From: Alcaligenaceae bacterium
GTDB taxonomy: Bacteria; Pseudomonadota; Gammaproteobacteria; Burkholderiales; Burkholderiaceae
Length of the DNA stretch: 12,958 nt
Assembly (NCBI GenBank): GCA_947445495.1
Contig: CANFEI010000008.1
Location: forward strand, 1 to 12,958
Direction: 5' to 3'
Notes under the pieces: generated by a model
Told to the model about the DNA's origin: nothing
Seen by the model: only the letters and a program-made list of their open reading frames with translations
Database searches by the model: none
Part shown: piece after piece, positions 3 to 11,907 of the stretch
Layout of the letters: the number at the start of each line of letters is the position of its first letter
Position numbering within the stretch: position 1 is the first letter of the stretch
Made by a program: the position numbers and the translations under genes

Positions 3-509
3 GACGCCCACTTCAGTGCGCTAAGCGCACGCTACGGCTACCCTATCGTCTCTGCTGCGCAATCCATCCGCAGAGCGTTTGCCTGCCTAGGAACACAACG
101 CATCGGCTTGGTCAGTCCCTATCCAGCATGGTTGACTGAAAAAAGTGCTGCCTATTGGCGCCGCTGTGGCGTAGAAATTTGTGCCATCAAGGGTCCTGAC
201 ACGCCCGGAGGCTTTCACAATATCTACACGATGCGCAACGATGCAGTCTTAAGTGCAGCCAAGCGCTTGCTTGTGCACAAGCCAGACTTGATATTACTAG
301 CCGGTGCGGGTATGCCTACTCTTGGTCCAATCATGACCTTGTCTGACTTAGGGATGCCAGCGATATCTTCAAATTTTTGTATGGGCTGGCAAATCAATCA
401 GATGGCGAAAGGCGCCGAGGATGACACCACCGCGCTGCGAAATTTATTGAAGCCTAATGCTGCCTGGAGAGCGAGACTGACAGAACGCTTCCCGCGCGTA
501 AAACCTTAG
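3..509 (+). CDS. Maleate isomerase / arylmalonate decarboxylase-like protein (Asp/Glu racemase superfamily), 5' truncated
   Basis: The reading frame is open from the left edge (first codon GAC at 3-5) to TAG at 507-509, so the true start lies outside the window. A TTG at 108 is in frame, but clear homologous sequence continues upstream of it (residues such as SAAQSIRRAFACLG), so it is not the start. About 168 C-terminal residues are visible. The segment GLVSPYPAWLTEKSAAYW matches the start of the second half-domain of the maleate cis-trans isomerase/arylmalonate decarboxylase fold, including the Tyr of the PY motif. The later strand LILLAGAGMPTL is where the second catalytic cysteine would sit in a two-cysteine enzyme; here it is Gly, flanked by Ala on both sides. 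The first cysteine site is outside the window. The gene converges on the PuuE-like gene with a 4-base overlap of stop codons. Family call is good; reaction and substrate are unknown. Confidence 0.8.
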   Translation, partial: DAHFSALSARYGYPIVSAAQSIRRAFACLGTQRIGLVSPYPAWLTEKSAAYWRRCGVEICAIKGPDTPGGFHNIYTMRNDAVLSAAKRLLVHKPDLILLAGAGMPTLGPIMTLSDLGMPAISSNFCMGWQINQMAKGAEDDTTALRNLLKPNAAWRARLTERFPRVKP

Positions 510-1405
510 CGTGAGGGATGTGTTGACAGCCAATGCTGCGCAATCGAAGTGCGCGTCGTCGTCCAAATGCGCGGATCATTCCGAACAAAGTTAAGAAGAT
601 CATGTAACGCCTGTACTCGTCCAGGCCTGCCGATAATGCGCAGATGTAGCCCAACAGTCAACATCGACTGAGACTGCCATTTGTCTGCTTCGTAAAGCAA
701 GCGGTTGAGGGTCTCGATCACATAGTCTGAAAAATCGTGTCCCTGTACAAAGGCGGGCGACTCACCGAAGAATCGCATATCGTTAGTGTCAAACTGATAC
801 GGCAAAACAAGACTCTTTCTGTCACCAAGCTTGGCCCAATACGGTAATTCATCGTTATACGCATCGCTGTCGTACAACAAGCCAAGCTCGTTGGCTAAAG
901 CGCGTGTATGAATGGTAGGAGTCGATTTGCAATGCCATCCCGTAGGCCTTACTCCGCAGGCGGCCTCTATCGTATCCAGTGTTTTGAGCATCATGGCACG
1001 CTCTTGAGTCCGATCTAGTCCGGCCGGAGATTGCCACAACCAACCGTGCGCGCACACGTCATGTCCGCGACCCACTGCATCCCTCAACAAATCGGGTGCG
1101 CGCTCTGCCATTCGCCCGCATACATTCAACGTGCACGGCACACCGGCCTCATCTAACTCACGTAACACCCGCCAATACGCAGTACGCAATCCAAATTCAA
1201 AATGAGACTCTCGACACAAATCTGGCTCGGTGGTCACCTTACTCGTGACTTCATGCATGGGTTCGTTCGCAGAATCGCCATCAGCAAGGCTTAGCTCGGC
1301 ACCCTCTTCCACATTCAGCACAAAATTGAGCGCGACACTCGCACCCTGTGGCCAAGCCGCATGCGGGCGTTGGTCGCGGTACCCGTAAAAATCTCTGCGG
1401 TCCAT
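506..1405 (-). CDS. PuuE-type allantoinase-like amidohydrolase (polysaccharide deacetylase fold)
   Basis: The product has 299 residues, close to the roughly 300-310 usual for PuuE-type proteins. These are cytoplasmic amidohydrolases with a polysaccharide-deacetylase (NodB-like) barrel that open cyclic ureides such as allantoin; relatives of this fold have been linked to cyclic imide hydrolysis. Landmarks in order: NFVLNVEEGAE (27-37), EFGLRTAYWRVL (70-81), HDVCAHGW with His120 (115-122), YDSDAYNDELPYW (178-190) and GLHLRIIGRPGRV (252-264). No signal peptide is present, so it acts on a small intracellular substrate, not on polysaccharide. The start is ATG with a strong AGGAG at 1411-1415. It is the last gene of the leftward operon, 35 bp after the racemase-like gene. 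True allantoinase is possible, but no other allantoin gene is visible, so the substrate is left open. The stop overlaps the convergent gene at 506-509. Confidence 0.85.
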   Translation of the reverse strand: MDRRDFYGYRDQRPHAAWPQGASVALNFVLNVEEGAELSLADGDSANEPMHEVTSKVTTEPDLCRESHFEFGLRTAYWRVLRELDEAGVPCTLNVCGRMAERAPDLLRDAVGRGHDVCAHGWLWQSPAGLDRTQERAMMLKTLDTIEAACGVRPTGWHCKSTPTIHTRALANELGLLYDSDAYNDELPYWAKLGDRKSLVLPYQFDTNDMRFFGESPAFVQGHDFSDYVIETLNRLLYEADKWQSQSMLTVGLHLRIIGRPGRVQALHDLLNFVRNDPRIWTTTRTSIAQHWLSTHPSR

Positions 1406-1440: not shown

Positions 1441-2187
1441 TTATGATTTGTACAACCCAGCAATCGCAGGATCGATCCCCGAGAACATGCGACCTTTCGG
1501 TCGAGCAAAACTTCCGTCATGTTGCTTCGAAGGCCGCATCTTCGCGAGCGTGAGTGCTTGTAGTGCGGCCGCTTGCGCAGGATCTACGACAGGAACACCG
1601 ACCGCTTTTGCAACCTGCCGGGCATAACCAGCAAGTACCGCTCCACACAGCACAATCACATCTGAGCCATCTTGATGCACCAATTGCTCAGAGGCCCGAA
1701 TCAACGCCCGCTCCACCTCCGGGTCTGCGTCTGTCGCCTTGAACGCACTAGGAACCTCCACCGCACGCCATTTAGATACCCGTGACGCCAGCCCATAGCT
1801 TGCGGTAAGTTCCTCGTACACAGGCACCATCGCTGCCCCTAGCGTTAGGCAGCCAATTTTTCCACCCAACATACTTGCCGTCAGCAACGCGGCTTCCGCC
1901 ATACCCACCACAGGAATATCGAGCATCTCTCGCAGTGCTTGCAAGCCTGTATCAATCGATACGCCAAGCATCAGGACATCGTGTCCCTCTTGATGACTAG
2001 CGGCCAAGCGAAGCATCTCTGCCAAGGCAATGGCGTTCTCAGAGCGGCTGCTAATAATCGCAGGTCCCGATTGCGCAGTAAAAGCATGAATCGTCGCGGC
2101 ATCCCCTACAGCCTGCTGGGCGTTGGCTCGCATGCGCTCGGTCACATGTGCGCTCGTGTTTGGATTAATCAGAAGAATTTTCATCAT
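1441..2187 (-). CDS. Hydantoin/Asp-Glu racemase family protein lacking both catalytic cysteines (paralogue A)
   Basis: About 248 residues, the normal length for the hydantoin/allantoin racemase family. The N-terminus KILLINPNTSAHVTERM is the family signature. Racemases of this family use two cysteines, in strands of the type IACFDDPGL and VLGCAGM. Here the first strand reads LMLGVSIDTGL, with Val replacing Cys. The second reads VIVLCGAVLAG, with Gly at the Cys position and a Cys moved one residue earlier. Two-base racemisation is therefore doubtful, and another reaction on a carboxylate or ureido acid is more likely (inference). The start is at a GTGATGATG run. The first ATG (2187) overlaps the regulator's TGA by one base, while the ATG at 2184 is better spaced from AGAG at 2191-2194, so the start could be three bases later. 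The tight overlap implies translational coupling with the regulator. Confidence 0.85.
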   Translation of the reverse strand: MMKILLINPNTSAHVTERMRANAQQAVGDAATIHAFTAQSGPAIISSRSENAIALAEMLRLAASHQEGHDVLMLGVSIDTGLQALREMLDIPVVGMAEAALLTASMLGGKIGCLTLGAAMVPVYEELTASYGLASRVSKWRAVEVPSAFKATDADPEVERALIRASEQLVHQDGSDVIVLCGAVLAGYARQVAKAVGVPVVDPAQAAALQALTLAKMRPSKQHDGSFARPKGRMFSGIDPAIAGLYKS

Positions 2188-2882
2188 CACTCTGCAAAGA
2201 TCGTCGCGAGGTCTACTTCAGAATCGGCTGGCTCAAGATTCAGGCTACCTTCAATATGGGAAAGATGTTCGAGCATCAGCGTTTGGGCACCCTCAATATC
2301 ACGCTTAGCAATTGCATCCGTGATCAAACTATGTTCATCCGCACGACAACTTGAGGCCGTGGGTGCGTCGTACAAAATAATAATGAGACAAGTCAGGCTG
2401 GAGAGCTCGCGCATCGTTCTCGCGAGCGCCTGATTACCGGCTAACTCGGATAACAACATATGAAACTCGCCTGATAGGCGAACAATCATGCGTTTATCTT
2501 CGCGCCGTCGGGCATCTTGCTCAAGCGCGCAGTGTTGCCGAAGACGCTCAATACGTTCAGGCGTTAGATTCTCAATCAAACGCCTGACCAACTCGGGTTC
2601 AATGAGTCGACGGGCCTCGAAGACGTGAACCGCTTGTTCAATGGTTGGCCGTGCAACATAGGCGCCGCGCTGTGGATACATATCCACCACTTGCTCGTGT
2701 GCAAGACGCGCAAGCACCTCACGAATTCTGGCTCGGCTGACGTTGAAGATCTCGGCAAGACGTTCTTCGACGAGCTTTGTCCCCGGATGTAAACGGTGCT
2801 CGAGAATCGCTCCATAGATTTTCTCGTAGATCTCGTCTTGCGTATTTTCTCGCTGTAATCGCGCAGTAACCTTAGATTGCAT
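2187..2882 (-). CDS. GntR-family transcriptional regulator, FadR/FCD subfamily
   Basis: 231 residues with the two-domain plan of FCD regulators. The N-terminal winged helix (about 17-79) contains LHPGTKLVEERLAEIFNVSR, a recognition helix of the SRARIREVLARL type, and the wing QRGAYVARP. The C-terminal FCD ligand domain (about 83-215) has EARRLIEPELV, FHMLLSELAGN (His141), DEHSLITDAI (His184) and MLEHLSHIE (His206). The three histidines fit the usual FCD metal site, which commonly binds organic-acid effectors. The start is ATG with GAGG at 2888-2891. The gene sits second in the leftward operon, between two enzyme genes, and so would control its own expression. Candidate operators are the TGTnnACA palindromes at 3657-3666, 3679-3692 and 3839-3848. 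The likely role is substrate- or intermediate-responsive control of both divergent operons (inference). Confidence 0.93.
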   Translation of the reverse strand: MQSKVTARLQRENTQDEIYEKIYGAILEHRLHPGTKLVEERLAEIFNVSRARIREVLARLAHEQVVDMYPQRGAYVARPTIEQAVHVFEARRLIEPELVRRLIENLTPERIERLRQHCALEQDARRREDKRMIVRLSGEFHMLLSELAGNQALARTMRELSSLTCLIIILYDAPTASSCRADEHSLITDAIAKRDIEGAQTLMLEHLSHIEGSLNLEPADSEVDLATIFAE

Positions 2883-2917: not shown

Positions 2918-3643
2918 TTACTTCCATTCAAACAATTGTCCCCAGCCTTTTATGCCGGCTGGGTTCGCGCCCACTGCGCGCAGAGCACCCCAAATTGTCG
3001 TGCTCACGGTGTCGAGCAATGGAATCTGCGTTTGCGCCTCAAAGCGGTCTGCGAGCTGTGCCGCTCGCAAGTTCGTGCAATACGTGACAATTGCTTGCGG
3101 CTGCGCACGGCTGACTTGCAGTAAATCAGATTCAATCTCCGCGGGCTCAACCAACGCAAAGTCAAAGTTCACAGAGATCTGTCGATGCGTCTCTGCGACC
3201 ACTTCGATTCCAATCTGCGCGTAATTCGCAATAATCTTTTCCTGTACATCACTGGTGTACGGTGTCACCAAGCCCAAACGTTTCACCTGTTTAATCGCCA
3301 ACAGCTCATTTAACGCAAGGATGGCCGTCGAGGCGCGAATCCCCGTCCGCTCCGTAATCCGTTGACAAAGCAGGACATCTTTATCAAAGCCCATCCAGCC
3401 CGCAGACGTGCCGCTCCACGTAATCACATCGGGATTGGCATCGGCTAGCAACTCTGCCGCACTTAAGATTTTACTATCATTAAACTGCCCAAGTGCTTGA
3501 TCTGAAAGAGCTATCTGCGTTACATGGAATCGACCAAAATGCGCCGTCACGCCAGGCATGACAGAGACGATTGAACTCGTCAAAGGCTCGAGTGCTGTAT
3601 TGGAGGACGGGGTCAATACCCCTATCCGGATTGGTGTGCTCAC
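2918..3643 (-). CDS. Arylmalonate decarboxylase / maleate isomerase-like enzyme
   Basis: 241 residues, the size of arylmalonate decarboxylase (AMDase) and maleate isomerase. The N-terminus GVLTPSSNTALEP is of maleate-isomerase type. Active-site strands can be aligned by eye to Bordetella AMDase. WSGTSAGW gives Gly78-Thr79-Ser80, where AMDase has Gly74-Thr75-Ser76. TPYTSDVQEK gives Tyr129 for Tyr126, and VTYCTNLRA gives Cys189 for Cys188. The C-terminus GWGQLFE resembles GYGRLFD of AMDase. Only one of the two superfamily cysteines is kept, which in AMDase goes with cofactor-free decarboxylation, not racemisation. A malonate-type or other decarboxylation is therefore a reasonable guess, not shown. 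The GTG start is supported by GGAG at 3649-3652; a nearby ATG at 3653 is out of frame and stops at once. It is the first gene of the leftward operon, 35 bp ahead of the regulator. Confidence 0.86.
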   Translation of the reverse strand: MSTPIRIGVLTPSSNTALEPLTSSIVSVMPGVTAHFGRFHVTQIALSDQALGQFNDSKILSAAELLADANPDVITWSGTSAGWMGFDKDVLLCQRITERTGIRASTAILALNELLAIKQVKRLGLVTPYTSDVQEKIIANYAQIGIEVVAETHRQISVNFDFALVEPAEIESDLLQVSRAQPQAIVTYCTNLRAAQLADRFEAQTQIPLLDTVSTTIWGALRAVGANPAGIKGWGQLFEWK

Positions 3644-3652: not shown

Positions 3653-3656
3653 ATTT

Positions 3657-3666
3657 ATGTCAACAT
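3657..3666. promoter_or_regulatory. Candidate GntR operator 1 (ATGTCAACAT)
   Basis: A perfect 10-bp palindrome, ATGT-CA-ACAT, just upstream of the leftward operon's first gene. It shares the TGTnnACA core with two other sites in the same intergenic region. GntR/FCD regulators commonly bind short palindromes with GT...AC half-sites. It would lie about 80 bases downstream of the predicted leftward transcription start. Assignment to the regulator encoded at 2187-2882 is inference. Confidence 0.45.
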
Positions 3667-3678
3667 TAGTGTAAATAC

Positions 3679-3692
3679 TATTGTTGACAATA
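3679..3692. promoter_or_regulatory. Candidate GntR operator 2 (TATTGTTGACAATA)
   Basis: A perfect 6+2+6 palindrome, TATTGT-TG-ACAATA, and the strongest of the three sites. It contains the same ten bases, TTGTTGACAA, as the site at 3839-3848. It sits between the leftward gene and the sigma-54 elements, so it could block leftward transcription or act upstream of the rightward promoter. The embedded TTGACA also resembles a sigma-70 -35 box, but no convincing -10 follows at the usual spacing. Confidence 0.55.
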
Positions 3693-3725
3693 TATTACTT
3701 AATTACTATTCATCAGACGAGAGTC

Positions 3726-3741
3726 TGGCACGACAATTGCT
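3726..3741 (+). promoter_or_regulatory. Sigma-54 (RpoN) promoter for the rightward hydantoinase-TRAP operon
   Basis: The sequence TGGCACG-ACAA-TTGCT matches the sigma-54 consensus TGGCACG-N4-TTGCW at every fixed base. The invariant GG (3727-3728) and GC (3739-3740) are separated by the required 10 bases. Transcription would start near 3752, giving a leader of about 157 bases before the ATG at 3909. Sigma-54 promoters need an enhancer-binding activator such as NtrC; none is encoded here. Use by nitrogen control would fit a nitrogenous substrate (inference). Confidence 0.75.
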
Positions 3742-3753
3742 TAAGCCTTCACA

Positions 3754-3769
3754 AGCAAATGCTATGCCA
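3754..3769 (-). promoter_or_regulatory. Sigma-54 (RpoN) promoter for the leftward operon
   Basis: On the minus strand the sequence reads TGGCATA-GCAT-TTGCT, with GG (3768-3767) and GC (3756-3755) exactly 10 bases apart and only two departures from the fixed consensus bases. Transcription would start near 3743 and run left, giving a leader of about 100 bases before the GTG at 3643. It faces and interlocks with the rightward promoter at 3726-3741. Confidence 0.6.
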
Positions 3770-3838
3770 GCCCCACAATAGCCGCAAACAACACTCACTC
3801 CTGCAAATATGAATTAACACATTAATATGTATGCACTG

Positions 3839-3848
3839 TTGTTGACAA
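3839..3848. promoter_or_regulatory. Candidate GntR operator 3 (TTGTTGACAA)
   Basis: The palindrome TTGT-TG-ACAA is identical over ten bases to the core of operator 2. It lies in the predicted leader of the rightward operon, about 90 bases downstream of the sigma-54 start and 60 bases before the hydantoinase ATG, a position suited to blocking elongating polymerase. It could instead be an upstream activator site for the leftward promoter. Confidence 0.5.
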
Positions 3849-3895
3849 TCGACTGCCCCAACATGGGGAATTTAGCATTAGTACCAGCTCTTAAC

Positions 3896-3908: not shown

Positions 3909-5327
3909 ATGTCTGACACGCTTGACCTCGTCATTACTAACGCCCGCGTCGCCACCGCCGCCGACACGTTTGACGCCAATATCGGTATTAAAGATGGAAA
4001 GATTGTTGTGGTGGGTAGCTATTTGCCACCGGCCAAAAAGACGATCGATGCAGCCGGCCGAGTGGTCACGCCAGGCGGAGTCGATGCGCACTGCCACCTT
4101 GACCAGCCAATGCCTGCTCCGATGAAAATGGCCGATGACTTTGAGACCGGCACACGTTCGGCAGCCTGTGGCGGCACAACGACGGTGATTCCCTTTGCTG
4201 CACAAGAAAAAGGCCAGTCACTGCGCGACGCCGTTCGGGACTACCACCGTCGCTCCGACGGCCGCGCGCATATTGATTACACCTTCCACCTTATTGTCAG
4301 TGACCCAACACCCGCCGTGCTGAACGACGAACTCCCTGCATTGATCGCAGAGGGTTATACGTCGTTCAAGATCTACATGACCTACGACGACCTCAAACTT
4401 AACGATGGTCAAATTCTCGATGTCTTGTCTGTAGCCAGACAACACGGCGCGATGGCGATGATTCATGCTGAGAACGCAGACTGCATCGAATGGCTGACTC
4501 GCAGACTGGAGGCCGCAGGGCAAACTGCGCCCCGTTTTCACGCACATTCACGGCCCATGCTTGTCGAACGTGAAGCCACACACCGCGCTATTGCCTTGTC
4601 TGAGCTGGTCGATGTGCCTATCCTGATCGTCCACGTCTCGGGCAAAGAGGCTGTCGAGCAAATCCGATGGGCGCGCGGCCATGGCCTACAAATCTTTGCT
4701 GAAACCTGTCCCCAGTACTTATTCCTCACCGCTGAGGACTTGGGCATCGATGATAGTTATGTGGGTGCGCGATGTATCTGCAGTCCACCTCCCCGAGACC
4801 GGAGCAATCAAGAAGTCATTTGGAATGCCTTAAGAGATGGCTTGTTTTCGGTCTTCTCGTCGGACCACGCACCCTTCAATTACGACAGCCCAGAAGGTAA
4901 AAAACTTGACGGAAAAGAGCAACCGTTTCGCCACATCCCCAACGGCATACCCGGACTCGAAACCCGCATGCCTTTACTGTATTCCGAAGGCGTACTGACT
5001 GGCCGACTCTCTTTGAATAAGTTTGTCGAACTGACCTCAACTAATCCTGCCAAAGCCTACGGGCTACACCCACGCAAAGGAACCATCGCGCCCGGTGCCG
5101 ATGCAGACCTTGTCATCTGGGACGAGAAAGACGTCACGATCCATAACAGTGCGCTGCATCATGCCGTGGACTACACCCCGTATGAGGGCATCCAACTAAA
5201 GGCGTGGCCAGGCTTAACGCTCAGTAACGGTGAAGTGGTATGGGATGGTAAAAATTTCCTGCCACGCTTAGGTAAGGGGAAATTCCTGACCTGCGGCAAG
5301 CCAACCCTCATGACCTCTGCGCGCTAG
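3909..5327 (+). CDS. Dihydropyrimidinase / D-hydantoinase-type cyclic amidohydrolase
   Basis: 472 residues, the standard length for cytoplasmic hydantoinases and dihydropyrimidinases, which hydrolyse cyclic ureides or imides to N-carbamoyl or amide acids with a two-zinc centre. All metal ligands are visible: GVDAHCHLD gives His61 and His63, SFKIYMTY gives the carboxylated Lys154, MIHAEN gives His186, VHVSG gives His242, and SSDHAPF gives Asp319. The substrate-positioning Tyr159, the CSPPPR loop (Ser292) and the IPNGIPG segment (Asn345) are also present. The enzyme therefore looks catalytically intact. It is first in the rightward operon, with GGAAG before its ATG. The next gene, a racemase homologue, starts 6 bp after its stop, the usual pairing in hydantoin pathways. 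No N-carbamoyl-amino-acid hydrolase is seen nearby, so the fate of the ring-opened product is unclear. Dihydropyrimidine, hydantoin or cyclic imide substrates cannot be told apart from sequence alone. Confidence 0.93.
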   Translation: MSDTLDLVITNARVATAADTFDANIGIKDGKIVVVGSYLPPAKKTIDAAGRVVTPGGVDAHCHLDQPMPAPMKMADDFETGTRSAACGGTTTVIPFAAQEKGQSLRDAVRDYHRRSDGRAHIDYTFHLIVSDPTPAVLNDELPALIAEGYTSFKIYMTYDDLKLNDGQILDVLSVARQHGAMAMIHAENADCIEWLTRRLEAAGQTAPRFHAHSRPMLVEREATHRAIALSELVDVPILIVHVSGKEAVEQIRWARGHGLQIFAETCPQYLFLTAEDLGIDDSYVGARCICSPPPRDRSNQEVIWNALRDGLFSVFSSDHAPFNYDSPEGKKLDGKEQPFRHIPNGIPGLETRMPLLYSEGVLTGRLSLNKFVELTSTNPAKAYGLHPRKGTIAPGADADLVIWDEKDVTIHNSALHHAVDYTPYEGIQLKAWPGLTLSNGEVVWDGKNFLPRLGKGKFLTCGKPTLMTSAR

Positions 5328-5333
5328 GACAAC

Positions 5334-6116
5334 GTGAAGCGTATCTTGTTGATCAATCCAAACATTTCCGCAAGCGTTTCGGAACTGATCGATGCGGAAG
5401 CAAAACGCTCTGCAAGTGCAGGCACCCGCATTCAAACCGTCACAGCCTCATTCGGGGTGGCGTATATCGAAACGCGTTTCGAGGCTCTAATCGGTGCCTA
5501 CGCCGCAGCCCAGCTTGCTGGTGAACACGCCGGCCACTATGACGCAGTGGTGGTGGCGGCCTTTGGCGACCCAGGCCTTCCGGGCCTCAAAGAAGTGTTG
5601 CCTTGCCCAGTCGTGGGTTTGACACAAGCCGCTCTCGCAAGTGCCTGCCTGTTAGGTAACCGTATCTCCATTGTCGCGATTTCGCGTCGCATACGCGCCT
5701 GGTATCAAGAAACGGTTGATTCCTACGGCTTGGGCAGCCGGCTGGTGAGCATTCGTAGTCTGGATGAACCCCTTCCTAACATTGGATCGATCCAACAAGA
5801 CAAGGCGGAAAGCTTGATTGCGACGGCGAATCTGTGCGTCAGTGAAGACGGTGCAGATGTCATTATCCTGGCAGGTGCCCCGCTGGCTGGGCTCGCGCGC
5901 AGTTTGTCTGGCAAGCTCCCTGTCCCCGTCGTGGACGGGGTATCGAGCGCCGTTCGCCATGCTGAAACCCTCATTCGCTTGAACGCAGGACAAACGACGA
6001 CCGGTAGCTTTTCGCCTCCGCCCGAAAAACCAAACGCAGGCCTTCCAGCCTCAATCGAAACTTTGCTCAGCCATGGGCATCAACGACTTCACTCTCACTC
6101 AAAGGACGCATCATGA
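5334..6116 (+). CDS. Hydantoin/Asp-Glu racemase family protein lacking both catalytic cysteines (paralogue B)
   Basis: 260 residues, starting KRILLINPNISASVSELID as usual for hydantoin racemases. The two cysteine sites can be located because their surroundings are well kept. VVVAAFGDPGL has Ala76 where racemases have Cys, and VIILAGAPLAG has Gly181 where racemases have Cys. The fold-defining YGLGSR and VPVVDGVSSAV segments are intact, so this is not a decayed gene. Paralogue A shows the same GAxLAG form at the second site, suggesting a shared subfamily with non-racemase chemistry (inference). The C-terminal tail after about residue 225 is Pro- and then His/Ser-rich and looks disordered. The start is GTG, with AGGA at 5326-5329 overlapping the hydantoinase stop codon; no ATG fits. 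Its TGA overlaps the next gene's ATG (ATGA at 6113-6116), so translation is coupled to the transporter. Confidence 0.87.
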   Translation: MKRILLINPNISASVSELIDAEAKRSASAGTRIQTVTASFGVAYIETRFEALIGAYAAAQLAGEHAGHYDAVVVAAFGDPGLPGLKEVLPCPVVGLTQAALASACLLGNRISIVAISRRIRAWYQETVDSYGLGSRLVSIRSLDEPLPNIGSIQQDKAESLIATANLCVSEDGADVIILAGAPLAGLARSLSGKLPVPVVDGVSSAVRHAETLIRLNAGQTTTGSFSPPPEKPNAGLPASIETLLSHGHQRLHSHSKDAS

Positions 6117-7117
6117 ACAGCAAAAAAATCGTCATTCATCGTCTCGCTGCTGCGATGGCATCGCTTCTTCTTTCAGCCACCTGTTTACAAGCCAGTGCGC
6201 AAGATAAATTGCAGATCGCTGGTAACTTTCCAACGTCCCATCCGAGCAGCGTTGCTGTAGAAAAAATATTTAAAGCCGAAGTCGCACGCCTAACTAACAA
6301 CACCCTTCAGGTAGACGTCTTCCCCGCGATGCAGTTGGGTGGCGCAAAAGAGAACGTCGATGGCGTGCGCGCAGGAACTCTGGGCCTGACATGGGTTGGT
6401 GCCGCTTTCATGTCGCGTATCGCGCCAGAGATTGAAGCAGTCAGCCTACCCTTTGTATTTAAAAACCGCGAATCCGCCTACCGCGTGATTGATGGTCCTG
6501 TTGGTAAAGCAATCGACCAAAAGTTGCTAGAGAAGGGCTTTGTCGTGCTCGGCTGGATGGAACTTGGCACGCGTCACATCACCAACAGCAAAGGTCCCAT
6601 TAAATCAGTCGATGATTTAAAAGGCATGAAGATTCGCATGCAACCAAACGAGACGCACCTTGCTTCATTTAGAGCGTTGGGCGCAAACCCCGTTGCGATG
6701 GATGTGAAGGAGCTGTATTCAGCACTCGAGCAAAAAGTTGTCGACGGTCAAGAGAATCCATACACAGTGATTGATGCCTTTCGTTTTGCCGAAGTGCAAA
6801 GACACCTATCGAACTCTTCGCACTTTTTTGATTTTATTGTTGTGGTCGCGAGTAAGCGCGTGTTCGACAAAATGAGTCCTGCAAATCAAACGGCCGTACG
6901 GCAAGCGATGGCAACAACCGTTGCCTACCAGCGCAAATTGGCTGCAGAAGACGAACAAAAATCGCTTTCTAATTTAAAAGCCAAAATGACCTATACGGAA
7001 ATCCCAGTAGAAATGTTTGAGCAGATGCGCAAACTCACAGCCCCGGTCGTTGAAAGCGTCAAGAAACGCGCCGGTGCAGATCTAGTCAATCAGGTTCTCG
7101 CTGAAACGTCTAAATAA
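6113..7117 (+). CDS. TRAP transporter solute-binding protein, DctP family (system 1)
   Basis: 334 residues. The protein starts with a basic n-region, a hydrophobic stretch (about 11-23) and a likely signal peptidase I site after ASA (about 29), so it is periplasmic. Cys24 is not in a proper lipobox. DctP landmarks: GNFPTSHPSS near the mature N-terminus, QLGGAKENVDGVRAG (74-88), LGTRHITNS (Arg154), GMKIRMQPNE (Arg175), and KVVDGQENPYTVI (208-220). The conserved arginine in KIRM normally pairs with a carboxylate on the ligand, so the cargo is probably an organic anion. It overlaps the racemase-like gene by 4 bp and is followed 25 bp later by its membrane partners. Placement directly behind the hydantoinase suggests it binds the pathway's substrate or the acid formed from it (inference). 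Confidence 0.95.
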   Translation: MNSKKIVIHRLAAAMASLLLSATCLQASAQDKLQIAGNFPTSHPSSVAVEKIFKAEVARLTNNTLQVDVFPAMQLGGAKENVDGVRAGTLGLTWVGAAFMSRIAPEIEAVSLPFVFKNRESAYRVIDGPVGKAIDQKLLEKGFVVLGWMELGTRHITNSKGPIKSVDDLKGMKIRMQPNETHLASFRALGANPVAMDVKELYSALEQKVVDGQENPYTVIDAFRFAEVQRHLSNSSHFFDFIVVVASKRVFDKMSPANQTAVRQAMATTVAYQRKLAAEDEQKSLSNLKAKMTYTEIPVEMFEQMRKLTAPVVESVKKRAGADLVNQVLAETSK

Positions 7118-7142
7118 CTACCTGTAACAACGGACCGCGATC

Positions 7143-7664
7143 ATGAGTGCAATTCCAATTCCCTACGACACAAGCTCAACGCTTGGAAAAGTGTTTCGCG
7201 TACTGGATTTCATTCTTATTGCGGCCGTTGTTGTGATATTTAGTTTTATGGTTGGTATTGTGTCCGCGCAGGTCGCGCTGCGTTATGGCCTCAACATGTC
7301 GATCGACTGGGCTGACGAGTCTGGCCGCCTAGCATTTGTCTGGGTGGTATTTTTATCGATCCCTCTTGCTGCTGCCCAAGGGGCGCATATCGGCATTGAT
7401 CTGTTCGTGGATAAGTTCTCAGCATTCCAGCAACGCCTCATCAGAAAATTAACCGCAGCTATTTGTGCCGCACTTTGCTATGCGATCGCCTGGTCTTGTG
7501 TAGAGCTGTGCAAAGATCAGTGGGACGAGAAAATGGCCACACTGGACATCAGTGTGGCGTATTTTTTTGTAGCAGTCGGAATCGGCATGCTGTACACGGG
7601 CATGCATTTAACAAGAATCGCACTCACCGACCCACCTAGCAAACAAGTAGGGGACGCCGAATGA
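7143..7664 (+). CDS. TRAP transporter small membrane subunit, DctQ family (system 1)
   Basis: 173 residues with four hydrophobic segments at roughly 20-42, 55-75, 98-118 and 133-155, as expected for DctQ. The segment WADESGRLAFVWVVFLSIPL followed by AAAQGAHIGIDLF is the family signature between helices 1 and 2. DctQ forms the inner-membrane complex with DctM and helps receive the binding protein. The ATG at 7143 has only a weak GGA upstream. Its TGA overlaps the DctM start (ATGA at 7661-7664), which fits equal production of the two subunits. Confidence 0.93.
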   Translation: MSAIPIPYDTSSTLGKVFRVLDFILIAAVVVIFSFMVGIVSAQVALRYGLNMSIDWADESGRLAFVWVVFLSIPLAAAQGAHIGIDLFVDKFSAFQQRLIRKLTAAICAALCYAIAWSCVELCKDQWDEKMATLDISVAYFFVAVGIGMLYTGMHLTRIALTDPPSKQVGDAE

Positions 7665-8941
7665 GCACCTTTGTCGTCATTGGTTTCATGGCGGTTGCCT
7701 TGATGAGCCTGCCGATTGCGTTTGCAATGGGGCTCAGCTCCATCATTGCAATCTGGCTCTCCGGAATCGATATCTCCATCATCCCGCAGCGCATGATGTA
7801 TTCCGTCAACTCGTTTCCGCTGATGGCGATCCCCTTCTTCATGCTGTCAGGCGAGCTAATGATTAAGGCGGGAATTATTGAACGCTTAATCTCCTTTGCC
7901 AATGCGCTCGTGGGTCGTGTCCGAGGTGGCTTAGCTCATGTCACCATGCTTTCTGGCGCGGGGCTCGCGACTGTATCTGGCACAGCCGTCTCAGACGCGA
8001 GCGCGCTCTCGGCCATTCTGGTTCCGTCTCTATCCAAGATTTATGACAAAGGCTTTGCCAGTGCCATCGTTGCCGCCGCGGCAAACTTAGGCCCTATCAT
8101 TCCGCCCTCAGCGGCGATGATTGTGTACGCCTTTATGGCAGGGCCGTCGGTATCCGTCGGTGGAATGTTTATGGCTGGCGTTGTTCCGGGCATTCTCATT
8201 ACGATCGGTTTTATGGCTCTATGCTCTTGGATCGTCACCAAGCGAGGCTGGCACACGACAGGCGAACCGTTTCAGCTCAAGCGTTTACTGCAGGAAACAC
8301 GTCGTTCCGCCATCGTCTTGTTCATGCCCTTGCTGATCATCGGCGGCATTATTGCTGGCGCCTTTACCGCCACTGAAGGGTCTGCGATCTCGGTTGTCTA
8401 CGCGTTGATTTTAGGTTTTTTTGTGACGCGCACGCTAAAACTCTCTGACCTCCCAGGCATCATCGTGCGCGCTGCAATTACCACCGCTGTGGTGGGTGCA
8501 CTCATTGCCTTCGCTTCAGTCATTACGTACTTGATGACAGTCGACCTGATGCCACAGAAGCTATCCGAGCTCTTGTTCAGCATTACAAAAGATCCGATTG
8601 TGTATCTTTTACTCGTGGCGGTGTTGCTGTTCATTGTAGGGATGTTCCTTGAGTCGAACTCTGCCTACATCATGCTGGTTCCCCTACTCCACCCCATTGC
8701 CATTCAGTATGGGATTGATCCGCTGCACTTCGGTTTTCTCTTCGTACTCAACCTCGTGATTGGCATGCTCACCCCACCAGTGGGCGTCGTCCTTTTCGTT
8801 GTCTGTGGTGTGACGGGCATTCGTATGCGTGAACTCGTCATAAACATTTGGCCTTTTGTTGCGTTGATGTATGCCGTTCTTTTGCTGTGTCTGTTTTTCC
8901 CTGCGATTGTGACAACCTTGCCTCGCGCAATGGGTTACTAG
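7661..8941 (+). CDS. TRAP transporter large permease, DctM family (system 1)
   Basis: 426 residues, the usual DctM length, hydrophobic throughout with about a dozen membrane segments. It is the sodium-coupled transport channel of the TRAP complex. Visible family motifs: FFMLSGELMIKAGI in the first third, GAGLATVSGTAVSDASALSA in the first hairpin region, AANLGPIIPPSAAMIVYAF, and LVIGMLTPPVGVVLFVVCG near the C-terminus, which is the second copy of the PP-containing scaffold hairpin. The frame is intact and it overlaps its DctQ gene by 4 bp. It completes transporter 1; the next gene starts a second full TRAP set 30 bp downstream. Confidence 0.95.
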   Translation: MSTFVVIGFMAVALMSLPIAFAMGLSSIIAIWLSGIDISIIPQRMMYSVNSFPLMAIPFFMLSGELMIKAGIIERLISFANALVGRVRGGLAHVTMLSGAGLATVSGTAVSDASALSAILVPSLSKIYDKGFASAIVAAAANLGPIIPPSAAMIVYAFMAGPSVSVGGMFMAGVVPGILITIGFMALCSWIVTKRGWHTTGEPFQLKRLLQETRRSAIVLFMPLLIIGGIIAGAFTATEGSAISVVYALILGFFVTRTLKLSDLPGIIVRAAITTAVVGALIAFASVITYLMTVDLMPQKLSELLFSITKDPIVYLLLVAVLLFIVGMFLESNSAYIMLVPLLHPIAIQYGIDPLHFGFLFVLNLVIGMLTPPVGVVLFVVCGVTGIRMRELVINIWPFVALMYAVLLLCLFFPAIVTTLPRAMGY

Positions 8942-8971
8942 CAATATTCCCTGCACCTACCGGAGTTCATT

Positions 8972-10021
8972 ATGTCTTTGATTAAACGATATCTTGCACC
9001 ACTTGCGTTAAGCAGTATTGTCTTGGCGATGCCAACGACTCAAGCACAGAACATCACGATGAAAGTGATCGGTCAACCAATAGCGACCGGTAACATTCAA
9101 AAAAATCGTGAACAGCCTTTCTTTGAGCAGCTCGCTGCCAAGACCGGCCTGCCAATCACTGTCGAATACAAGCCAATGGATACGCTTGGCATTAAAGATA
9201 CTGAGCAACTGCGCGTCATGAAGACGGGTCTTTTTGACATCGTCTCCCTGCGCTTCTCACAAAACTCACGCGACGAACCCTCTCTGATTGGCTTGGACTT
9301 GGTGGGCGGCAGTCCTGATTACCCCACGAGCCGCAAAGCTGCTGATGCCTGGGCACCGTTACTGGACGCACGCCTACAAAAGCAATTCGGTATCAAGTTA
9401 TTGGGACACTGGCCTTTTGGTCCACAAATGCTGTTTTGCAAAAAGCCGATCAATCAACTTACTGATGTGAAAGGCATGAAAGTGCGCGTGACCGATCAAA
9501 TTATGGCGAAGTTCCTAGAATCACTCGGTGCAACACCTGTGCCGATGGGCTTTAGCGATGTTCACCAAGCGCTCTCGCTAGGTGTTGTGGACTGCGCAGT
9601 GACGGGTCCAAGTTCGGCCAACTCCGCATCTTGGACTGAAATCGTGACACATCAGTTGCCACTTGGCTTTCAAATGGGCTTTAACGGCTACGCGATCTCA
9701 CTCAAAACCTGGAATCGTTTGAACCCAGCGCAACAGGCTACGCTGCAAACCGCGTTTACTGAGTTGACCAACGACATCTGGAAGTACTCAGAAGAGTTGT
9801 ATCAAGACGCGCTGCGCTGTAACGAAGGTACAGACCCGTGCACAACAGGCAAGAAATTTAAAGTCACCACCGCTAAAGTATCTGCAGCAGACATCAAACT
9901 TGTCGGAAGCGTCGTTGACAAACTTTCCTTCCCTGCATGGGCACCTGTTTGTGACAAAACCAATCCAACTTGCTCTGCTGATTGGAAGAAGGCCGTTGGT
10001 CCAATCCTTGGCGTGAAATAA
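8972..10021 (+). CDS. TRAP transporter solute-binding protein, DctP family, cysteine-rich type (system 2)
   Basis: 349 residues with a signal peptide (hydrophobic 9-20, likely cleavage after about residue 25). It is only distantly like the first binding protein. Its landmarks are PFFEQLAAKTGLPITVEYKP (49-68), GLFDIVSLRFSQNSRDEPS, GMKVRVTDQ (Arg172, the expected carboxylate contact) and SLGVVDCAVTGPSSANSASW. Unusually there are six cysteines: 156, 208, 283, 290, 327 and 334. The last four form two C-x6-C pairs, CNEGTDPC and CDKTNPTC. In the periplasm these could make three disulphides. GGAG at 8962-8965 supports the ATG. It opens the second TRAP set and probably binds a different acid from system 1, since the two pockets differ (inference). 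Confidence 0.94.
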   Translation: MSLIKRYLAPLALSSIVLAMPTTQAQNITMKVIGQPIATGNIQKNREQPFFEQLAAKTGLPITVEYKPMDTLGIKDTEQLRVMKTGLFDIVSLRFSQNSRDEPSLIGLDLVGGSPDYPTSRKAADAWAPLLDARLQKQFGIKLLGHWPFGPQMLFCKKPINQLTDVKGMKVRVTDQIMAKFLESLGATPVPMGFSDVHQALSLGVVDCAVTGPSSANSASWTEIVTHQLPLGFQMGFNGYAISLKTWNRLNPAQQATLQTAFTELTNDIWKYSEELYQDALRCNEGTDPCTTGKKFKVTTAKVSAADIKLVGSVVDKLSFPAWAPVCDKTNPTCSADWKKAVGPILGVK

Positions 10022-10030
10022 GGTACTAGT

Positions 10031-10618
10031 ATGAAAACACGGCTAGAGAGTTTATTAAGCATCCTGTTTGGCGGAATTTTTAGTGTTCTGGTTATCGTCG
10101 TCACCATTGAGACGATCGCCAGAAAACTCTTCAACATTTCGCTACAAGGAGCAGATGAATTAGGAGGATATGCGTTGGCCATTGGATCAACGCTTGCCTT
10201 CAGCCTAGCCGTGTTTGGTAGGAATCACATTCGCGTCGATGTGTTGCACGAAAAGTTCCCGCCGTGGCTCCAAGGCTGGATGAATTGGTTCGCGGCGACA
10301 AGCATGGCGGTATTTGCGATTTTCCTGTGTTTTGTCACGGTGAATGTCCTGACCGACACCATCAGTTACAGCAGCACTGCGCAAACACCTTGGGCGACGC
10401 CCTTGATATATCCTCAGTCAATTTGGTATGCCGGACTCGTTATTTTTGCGTGCGTGACGTCAATCTGGGCTATTCGTGCGACCTACCTGTTAGCGAGAGG
10501 CCGCATCGAAACTCTAAATGAAGAGTTTGAACCCAAGAGCGCAAAAGAAGAAATCAAAGAAGAGCTCGACGACCTCGCACAACGATCCAACATATCTGAG
10601 ATCACAAATAAATCATGA
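10031..10618 (+). CDS. TRAP transporter small membrane subunit, DctQ family (system 2)
   Basis: 195 residues with four membrane segments at about 7-27, 45-65, 83-107 and 120-145. The region ADELGGYALAIGSTLAFSLA followed by NHIRVDVLHEKFP is the DctQ signature between helices 1 and 2. The C-terminal 35 or so residues are strongly charged (EEFEPKSAKEEIKEELDDL) and predicted helical and cytoplasmic, longer than in the DctQ of system 1, which ends soon after its last helix. AAGG overlapping the stop of the binding-protein gene (10020-10023) serves as ribosome site for the ATG at 10031. Its TGA overlaps the next ATG (10615-10618). Confidence 0.93.
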   Translation: MKTRLESLLSILFGGIFSVLVIVVTIETIARKLFNISLQGADELGGYALAIGSTLAFSLAVFGRNHIRVDVLHEKFPPWLQGWMNWFAATSMAVFAIFLCFVTVNVLTDTISYSSTAQTPWATPLIYPQSIWYAGLVIFACVTSIWAIRATYLLARGRIETLNEEFEPKSAKEEIKEELDDLAQRSNISEITNKS

Positions 10619-11907
10619 ATCCAACCATTGTCATTATCGCATTCCTGATTATGGTCATCATGATGATCGCGGGTGTCCCGATCGCTGTATCGATGGCGCT
10701 AGTGGGTATTGTGGGCGGAGTCTCGGTCTACGGGATGCCATTTATTAACTCCATCGCCCCAGTATTATGGGGCGTTCAAAATGAAAATCTTCTTACATCT
10801 ATCCCATTATTTATTTTGCTTGGTGAGCTATTACTGAGATCTGGCATTGCGGATCGAATGTACCTTGCACTCTCCGCTTGGTTTGGTCGATTACCTGGCG
10901 GCTTACTACATACAAATATTGGTAGCTGCGCGTTGTTTGCTGCCACTTCGGGATCCTCCGTCGCCACGGCAGCCACAATTTCAACCGTGGCCCTGCCCTC
11001 CCTAATGAAGCGTGGCTATCCAATCAGACCTTCGCTCGGTTCAATCGCAGCAGGTGGAACCCTCGGAATTCTTATTCCACCCAGCGTCAATATGATTATC
11101 TACGGGTCGCTTACCAGCAACTCGATTGGAAAACTGTTTATCGCAGGGATTATTCCCGGACTGTTGCTCACAGGCTCGTTCATGCTGTATGTCGCCATCA
11201 CTAGTTTGTTGAGCGGTAATGCCATGCGCGAAGAAAAAGTATCCTTCAGCTATAAGCTGAAAGTGTCTGTGCACCTCATTCCTCCAATGATCGTCTTTGG
11301 CGTGGTCATGGGCAGCCTGTATTTTGGCATCGCAACCGCGACCGAAAGTGCTGCCTTAGGGGTCACTACCGTCGTCTTGTTTGTATTGAAGTCTGGTCGT
11401 TTGAATTGGGCGCTTTTACGTGGCTGTTTTATTTCCACAGCACGTGTCTCGGGCATGATCTTATTGATCATCGCAGCTGCGTTTATCCTGAATCTAACGA
11501 TTAGCCTAACGGGTGTTGCCGAGATTATGACCAAATGGGTCACAGGCCTCGGGCTTTCGAAGACCGCCTTGATTCTTGGTTTGATTTTGTTTTATCTGTT
11601 GCTAGGTATGTTCATGGATGTTTTATCCATGATGGTTGCGACGATACCGATTACCTACCCCATCGCCATGGCGCTTGGCGTCGATCCAATTTGGTTTGGC
11701 ATCTTCGTGATCCTAATGTGTGAACTCGGTCTCATCACACCACCTGTTGGGATGAATCTTTTCGTGGTGCACGGCATTCGACCAGACAAAGGTGGGATCG
11801 AGGATGTCATGTGGGGCGCTTTACCCTACGCGATCATCATCATTCTGTTCACCATGTTCCTGATGATCTTCCCAGAAATCGTCACTTGGTTACCTAACCA
11901 GATGTAG
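10615..11907 (+). CDS. TRAP transporter large permease, DctM family (system 2)
   Basis: 430 residues, standard for DctM, with about a dozen hydrophobic segments. Motifs include LFILLGELLLRSGIADRMY, CALFAATSGSSVATAATIST, GGTLGILIPPSVNMIIYGSL and CELGLITPPVGMNLFVVHGI, the paired PP hairpins of the family. It is the sodium-driven transport subunit of system 2 and the last gene of the rightward operon. It overlaps its DctQ by 4 bp. Its last 14 bases (11894-11907) overlap the end of the convergent hydrolase gene, leaving no room for an intergenic terminator; none was seen just beyond either. Confidence 0.95.
   Translation: MNPTIVIIAFLIMVIMMIAGVPIAVSMALVGIVGGVSVYGMPFINSIAPVLWGVQNENLLTSIPLFILLGELLLRSGIADRMYLALSAWFGRLPGGLLHTNIGSCALFAATSGSSVATAATISTVALPSLMKRGYPIRPSLGSIAAGGTLGILIPPSVNMIIYGSLTSNSIGKLFIAGIIPGLLLTGSFMLYVAITSLLSGNAMREEKVSFSYKLKVSVHLIPPMIVFGVVMGSLYFGIATATESAALGVTTVVLFVLKSGRLNWALLRGCFISTARVSGMILLIIAAAFILNLTISLTGVAEIMTKWVTGLGLSKTALILGLILFYLLLGMFMDVLSMMVATIPITYPIAMALGVDPIWFGIFVILMCELGLITPPVGMNLFVVHGIRPDKGGIEDVMWGALPYAIIIILFTMFLMIFPEIVTWLPNQM

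Follow-up and report, generated by a model that had tools for sequence, protein, structure and literature searches.

A predicted bidirectional sigma-54 promoter in a palindrome between divergent hydantoin-type operons of an Alcaligenaceae bacterium

The stretch of DNA analysed here (the window, 12,958 nucleotides) carries a hydantoin-type catabolic cluster, and the 265-bp gap between its two divergent operons holds a palindrome at 3725-3770 with a facing pair of sigma-54-like elements, which our analysis confirmed as real. We consider it quite likely that this pair serves nitrogen-controlled hydantoin operons as a bidirectional sigma-54 promoter, with mutually exclusive openings. The genes on either side are the following.

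506..1405, minus strand: polysaccharide-deacetylase/PuuE-like gene, last of the leftward operon (PF01522; the allantoinase PuuE model falls below its cut-off)
1441..2190, minus strand: Asp/Glu/hydantoin racemase (PF01177)
2187..2882, minus strand: GntR/FCD regulator (PF00392 and PF07729)
2918..3643, minus strand: Amdase-like gene (arylmalonate decarboxylase / EutA superfamily), first of the leftward operon (PF17645; below the NCBIfam equivalog cut-offs)
3909..5327, plus strand: D-hydantoinase/dihydropyrimidinase, first of the rightward operon (TIGR02033, 526 bits against a cut-off of 393)
5334..6116, plus strand: second Asp/Glu/hydantoin racemase (PF01177)
6113..8941, plus strand: TRAP transporter DctP-DctQ-DctM (PF03480, PF04290, PF06808)
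8972..11907, plus strand: second TRAP transporter DctP-DctQ-DctM (PF03480, PF04290, PF06808)

The two complete TRAP transporters stand in tandem on the hydantoinase strand (6113-11907), and their binding proteins fit PF03480 at 2e-74 (first) and 8e-23 (second).

The sigma-54 -24/-12 consensus is GG-N10-GC in a context of TGGCAC and TTGC, and the gap contains one such element reading each way.

3725..3770, no strand: 46-bp imperfect palindrome holding both elements (arm search and counting)
3726..3741, plus strand: predicted rightward sigma-54 promoter TGGCACGACAATTGCT, made up of TGGCACG, ACAA and TTGCT, with 0 mismatches to TGGCACGNNNNTTGCW
3754..3769, minus strand, read from 3769 to 3754: predicted leftward sigma-54 promoter TGGCATAGCATTTGCT, made up of TGGCATA, GCAT and TTGCT, with 2 mismatches

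A sequence-only reading of this DNA had described a rightward element at the consensus in every fixed base, a leftward element with two mismatches and proper GG-N10-GC spacing, and a 46-bp palindrome around both, and all three were recovered. The rightward element agrees with the consensus at 12/12 fixed positions and is the only site in the window with 0 mismatches; the leftward element agrees at 10/12, and both fit the -24/-12 promoter pattern. The palindrome arms (3725-3742 and 3753-3770) are 18 nt each, are 78% complementary and have 10 nt between them. The arms mismatch at four positions, by eye two within the -24 element (TGGCACG in one, TGGCATA in the other) and two within the N4 stretch, and the -12 boxes of the two elements are separate, 15 bp apart. 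Counting the GG as -25/-24 places the predicted starts at 3752 (plus strand) and 3743 (minus strand), 9 bp apart, the same as the ~3752 and ~3743 given earlier; the predicted leaders are 157 nt to the hydantoinase ATG and 100 nt to the Amdase-like GTG.

Isolated consensus matches are weak evidence: the genome nearest to the window (G001, 91% identity over 3.3 kb) has 15, versus 5 for a reversed control pattern. The leftward score is unremarkable alone, with three minus-strand sites of at least 10/12 in the window, and with 3 mismatches allowed the whole window shows no enrichment of sigma-54-like sites (29 matches versus 26.96 expected). A facing pair (0-30 bp) with a summed score of at least 22/24 arose in 0/2000 dinucleotide shuffles of the window; a pair at 20/24 or more arose in 10/2000 and any single 12/12 site in 22/2000.

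Related loci came from a GntR scan of genome contigs (16 loci, including L010 of Zwartia hollandica LF4-65, which carries both elements) and from an Amdase search, which had matches in 40/268 family genomes and gave 30 loci, with 12 more matches without a locus. Four loci of the GntR scan (L014, L016, L017 and L022) were left out for want of an adjacent hydantoinase, and L007-L013 were counted once, their gap sequences being those of L023-L027, L029 and L030. Nineteen loci of the Amdase search (L034-L052), whose genes are not divergent neighbours within ~3.7 kb, were also left out; of 3 additional loci checked for the divergent layout, 0/3 have it. The comparison set comprises the 12 family sequences with divergent neighbouring Amdase-like and hydantoinase genes, namely the window and L023-L033. 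One of the scanned loci, L008 (CAMBFI010000006.1), is titled a Bordetella parapertussis MAG and has the gap sequence of the Zwartia-like G001 (L001); the title looks mislabelled.

The rightward element is present in all 12 divergent sequences, window included, at 10-12 of the 12 fixed positions each, and seven of them (the window and L023-L028) also have a leftward element facing it, at 10 or 11 of 12. The leftward element agrees at 11/12 fixed positions in all six paired relatives, the window's copy being the weakest of the seven. L031 has a weaker leftward candidate (10/12) 16 bp away, and L029, L030 and L032 have the rightward element only, with no leftward arm at 9/12 or more. L033, from another genus (G066), has a 644-bp gap with separate, back-to-back sites, the leftward at gap position 236 (11/12) and the rightward at 546. 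At the Variovorax/Aquabacterium loci, neither element was found at 9/12 or more (5/5).

Among the seven paired sequences, 22 of the 24 fixed positions are invariant (11/12 in each element), versus 18 of the 112 other columns of 3692-3827 (Fisher p ~2e-12, with columns taken as independent and shared descent ignored). Since the six paired relatives all belong to one GTDB genus, these column counts overstate independence. By region, the other invariant columns number 0/4 and 2/4 in the N4 stretches, 2/12 in the inter-arm spacer, 6/33 in the left flank and 7/57 in the right flank. The window and L027, whose Amdase-like proteins are 74% identical, agree at 23/24 fixed positions, 2/8 N4 positions and 28/90 flanking positions. 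Six of the paired sequences have their arms 12 bp apart; in the seventh, L026, the separation is 11 bp. A comparison of homologous clusters had been set beforehand as a test that could refute the promoter reading, and the reading withstood it; the GG-N10-GC spacing of both arms is kept, while the N4 stretches, the spacer and the flanks drift. In a tree of the Amdase-like proteins, a supported group (99/96) unites the seven paired sequences with L031, whose long branch is nested among them, so that the seven do not group by themselves. A second group (100/100) holds the one-armed loci and a third (100/98) the loci without sigma-54 sites.

This conservation pattern fits two separately read promoters better than one dyad operator, and the reading as two interlocked sigma-54 promoters is well supported. 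The palindrome could instead be the operator of a dimeric regulator such as the GntR protein, with the sigma-54 likeness secondary, and the window does have a fair dyad (78% of arm positions), while the cluster encodes a regulator of its own. However, for a site bound by a dimer one would expect a constant spacing of the half-sites and no loss of either arm, and the relatives show otherwise: L026 carries a 1-bp indel between the arms, and the three one-armed relatives (L029, L030 and L032) lack a leftward arm at 9/12. Within the arms, moreover, the N4 stretch drifts while the GG and GC blocks stay, and in five relatives that lack sigma-54 sites the same regulator is accompanied by other boxes, of the type TGTYRACA. 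We therefore rejected the dyad operator as the main reading and consider it very improbable.

It is also unlikely, though conceivable, that the rightward element is the sole working promoter and the leftward one a parking or decoy site that damps it, the leftward operon using another promoter. The wider occurrence of the rightward element (12/12 divergent sequences, with a facing leftward one in seven) and the weaker leftward match would agree with such a role, as would the repression of some E. coli promoters by binding of the RpoN holoenzyme, reported in the part of PMC8743547 that bears on this. Yet 11/12 columns of the leftward element are invariant, with GG and GC at the proper N10, the element stands 100 nt from a start codon when counted from its predicted start, and L033, in another genus, has a separate leftward-reading site of its own at 11/12.

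Boxes of the type TGTYRACA stand on both sides of the promoter pair and had been left out of the earlier reading.

3656..3692, no strand: inverted repeat with the left regulator boxes TGTCAACA (3658-3665) and TTGTTGACAA (3681-3690), 22/37 columns invariant
3828..3850, plus strand: right regulator box TGTATGCACTGTTGTTGACAAT, a further member of this motif family, at a distance of 158 bp from the left direct copy

The TGTYRACA boxes flanking the pair lie at 3658, 3682 and 3840, and 20/26 columns of the right box region (3826-3851) are invariant. At least one such box occurs in 15 of the 16 distinct other loci scanned; it is absent in L032, and L027 and L028 have the right box only. The boxes also occur in 5/5 scanned Variovorax/Aquabacterium loci, which lack sigma-54 sites and have the same GntR gene adjacent. 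Because the boxes go with the GntR gene whether or not sigma-54 sites are present, they are probably operators of the cluster's GntR regulator. Their presence beside the same gene at these five loci does not favour a role as activator sites, which we had considered as a candidate. Each predicted start has boxes on its downstream side, so the regulator might act as a road-block or through a loop.

The two elements face each other and the transcripts diverge without overlap. Closed complexes of the sigma-54 holoenzyme are stable and persist until an activator opens them at the cost of ATP; their footprint extends from about -33 to -5, and that of the open complex to about +20. The predicted bubbles (-12 to +2) span 3740-3753 and 3742-3755 and have ~12 bp in common. 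With such footprints, an open complex would cover the opposite promoter, and two closed complexes would just touch, at 3747/3748. The sequence-only reading had claimed that the melted regions overlap and that two holoenzymes could not bind together: the first part agrees with the predicted bubbles, and the second does not follow, since closed complexes would only abut. Mutual exclusion is thus likely at the open-complex stage, as judged from the predicted geometry, and the same geometry makes competition between the two operons a good hypothesis, not a result. As related bacteria have kept both elements though the surrounding DNA changed, the two operons may take turns.

Both promoters might also be real and fire independently, without competition, owing to low occupancy or to closed complexes lying side by side. 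This branch overlaps our best explanation, and we regard it as possible but doubtful. Closed-complex footprints that merely abut would allow it, and basal activity was too low for competition at five sigma-70 bidirectional promoters that were tested (PMC12825309). On the other side stand the predicted overlap of the open complexes and the stability of sigma-54 closed complexes, which wait for an activator.

The sigma factor was traced through relatives only, rpoN being present once in each of 11/11 (G001 and 10 more). In G001 a single sigma-54 activator domain reaches E 1e-30 or better, and it belongs to a protein that lies above the TIGR01818 NtrC cut-off and is encoded beside NtrB; four weaker PF00158 matches (E 1e-7 to 2e-4) also exceed the Pfam cut-off. 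At least one activator at E 1e-30 or better, including an NtrC orthologue (73-96% identical to that of G001), is found in 10 of 11 other genomes. The number of strong activators is two in G241, three in G066 and none in G264 (89% complete). NtrC is the sole strong activator, at that threshold, in five of the six pair-bearing genomes (G001, G239, G241, G245, G259 and G263; the exception is G241), a point likewise missing from the earlier reading. The pair is therefore probably under nitrogen control.

A strong NtrC site was not found near the promoter pair, the best candidate agreeing with the NtrC dyad at 9/12.

3854..3870, no strand: weak candidate NtrC site TGCCCCAACATGGGGAA, 9/12 to the NtrC dyad

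Relative to the leftward start this candidate is ~111-127 bp upstream, relative to the rightward start it is at +103 to +119, and it recurs at the same place, at 8-9 of 12, in the other six pair-bearing loci, with 11/17 columns invariant. L031 has an NtrC-like match of 10/12 at -47, and NtrC-like sites at 10-11 of 12 accompany 6 of the 13 other sigma-54-like loci in G001 (650 bp scanned, with a slightly stricter score). The stretch 3854-3870 is a conserved palindrome of the type CCCC-N5-GGGG, at -55 before the hydantoinase gene in 7/7 paired sequences, and may be an NtrC site or something else. Another NtrC-like match (10/12), 400 bp inside the Amdase-like gene, was rejected: it occurs in 6/15 loci, of which three lack sigma-54 sites, and seems to reflect conservation of the coding sequence.

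Together, these observations suggest a model in which each palindrome arm would be a separate -24/-12 promoter, one serving the Amdase-like, GntR and racemase genes to the left and the other the hydantoinase, racemase and TRAP genes to the right. Sigma-54 RNA polymerase would park on either arm, and NtrC would open it when nitrogen is short. Because ~12 bp are common to both melted regions, one orientation would be open at a time and the operons would draw on one start region. The GntR regulator, itself a product of the leftward operon, probably binds the boxes ~50-100 bp downstream of each start and would add substrate control. A more far-reaching version, which we offer as tentative, is that one activator, NtrC, opens polymerase either way on the same melted bases of a conserved sigma-54 bidirectional promoter, and that polymerase competition couples expression of the repressor operon with that of the catabolic one. 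The NtrC enhancer would then precede one start and follow the other. Since the stable closed complex of the sigma-54 holoenzyme waits for its activator, an interlocked pair would be a natural test of orientation control, that is, of whether polymerase orientation alone sets the ratio of the two operons, and also of whether one enhancer serves both directions. If the model holds, Zwartia-like bacteria should break down hydantoin under nitrogen control.

The arrangement, earlier called uncommon, proved so as far as we sampled. The strict facing pattern occurs in 6/268 family genomes, every time at the Amdase|hydantoinase locus, and in 5/398 genomes of a phylum sample, namely G001 and four of family f40. 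In 3/4 of these f40 genomes, a copy stands 12-67 bp before GTGAAACTTCAG (L080, L082, L084 and L085). Two copies in G428 (L084:62-125 and L085:92-155), both near contig ends, are near-identical palindromes as far as GTGAAACTTCAG and differ beyond it, much as at the boundary of a mobile repeat; G428 has one more match (L081), which falls within open frames, and within the genus of G428 the strict pattern is present in 3/23. In the f40 genome G408, L083:1501-1542 is an intergenic facing pair without GTGAAACTTCAG, whose arms, scored by eye at 12/12 and 10/12, are 10 bp apart. It lies in no open frame of 100 codons and is possibly a second true interlocked pair. A relaxed pattern was found in 15/369 genomes of a class sample, versus 4/369 for the reversed control. 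Within the relaxed set, G951 fits the strict pattern too (arms at 9/12 and 10/12), though inside an open frame, and by eye TGGCAC is present in both arms in G001 only.

Among known systems, zraP|zraS and hycA|hypA of E. coli, which we take to be divergent sigma-54 promoter pairs, resemble the window in that the -24/-12-like elements of two divergent operons share an intergenic region. Their best intergenic sites in MG1655 stand back to back, 139 and 113 bp apart, with room for an enhancer between, whereas the window pair faces and interlocks. Both sides of E. coli sgrR|sgrS are described as RpoN/NtrC-dependent in part of PMC8743547; the stretch of it that we scanned has no site at 8/12. For Salmonella, passages of PMC10794520 place 4.8% of RpoN sites at bidirectional promoters. 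Hydantoin genes have been linked to RpoN before: in the sections of PMC5979394 concerned, a putative RpoN box lies upstream of the hydantoinase operon of Paraburkholderia phymatum and a hydantoin-utilisation gene of Bradyrhizobium is mentioned as a direct RpoN target, and part of PMC12316311 lists hydantoin racemase among sigma-54-regulated groups in Proteobacteria. P. phymatum is like the window in combining hydantoinase genes, a predicted sigma-54 promoter and a nitrogen context, but in those sections of PMC5979394 a single box precedes the operon and no box is given for a divergent partner, whereas the window has two. Among the matches listed in the open literature, mostly titles and the starts of abstracts, no description of interlocked sigma-54 promoters of this geometry was found.

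Bidirectional promoters are established for sigma-70 (Warman et al. 2026, PMC12825309; Warman et al. 2021 as cited there). According to passages of the 2026 paper, in whose text the term "sigma54" has 0 occurrences, divergent starts 18 bp apart are commonest, spacings of 10 and 23 bp are also common, and competition appears only with strong activation of one side, which can repress the other. The window pair is like them in its pseudo-symmetrical sequence, and would be like them in the running of polymerase either way and in divergent starts a few bp apart, here a predicted 9 bp within a palindrome. It differs in that sigma-70 bidirectional promoters start about a shared, symmetric -10 element, whereas the window has two separate -12 boxes, belonging to two complete interlocked sigma-54 promoters that would need an ATP-driven activator. 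The pair may thus work like a bidirectional promoter of the kind described by Warman et al. but is not a member of that class. Bidirectional promoters as such are already known for sigma-70, and what would be new here, as far as the open literature shows, is an interlocked sigma-54 version.
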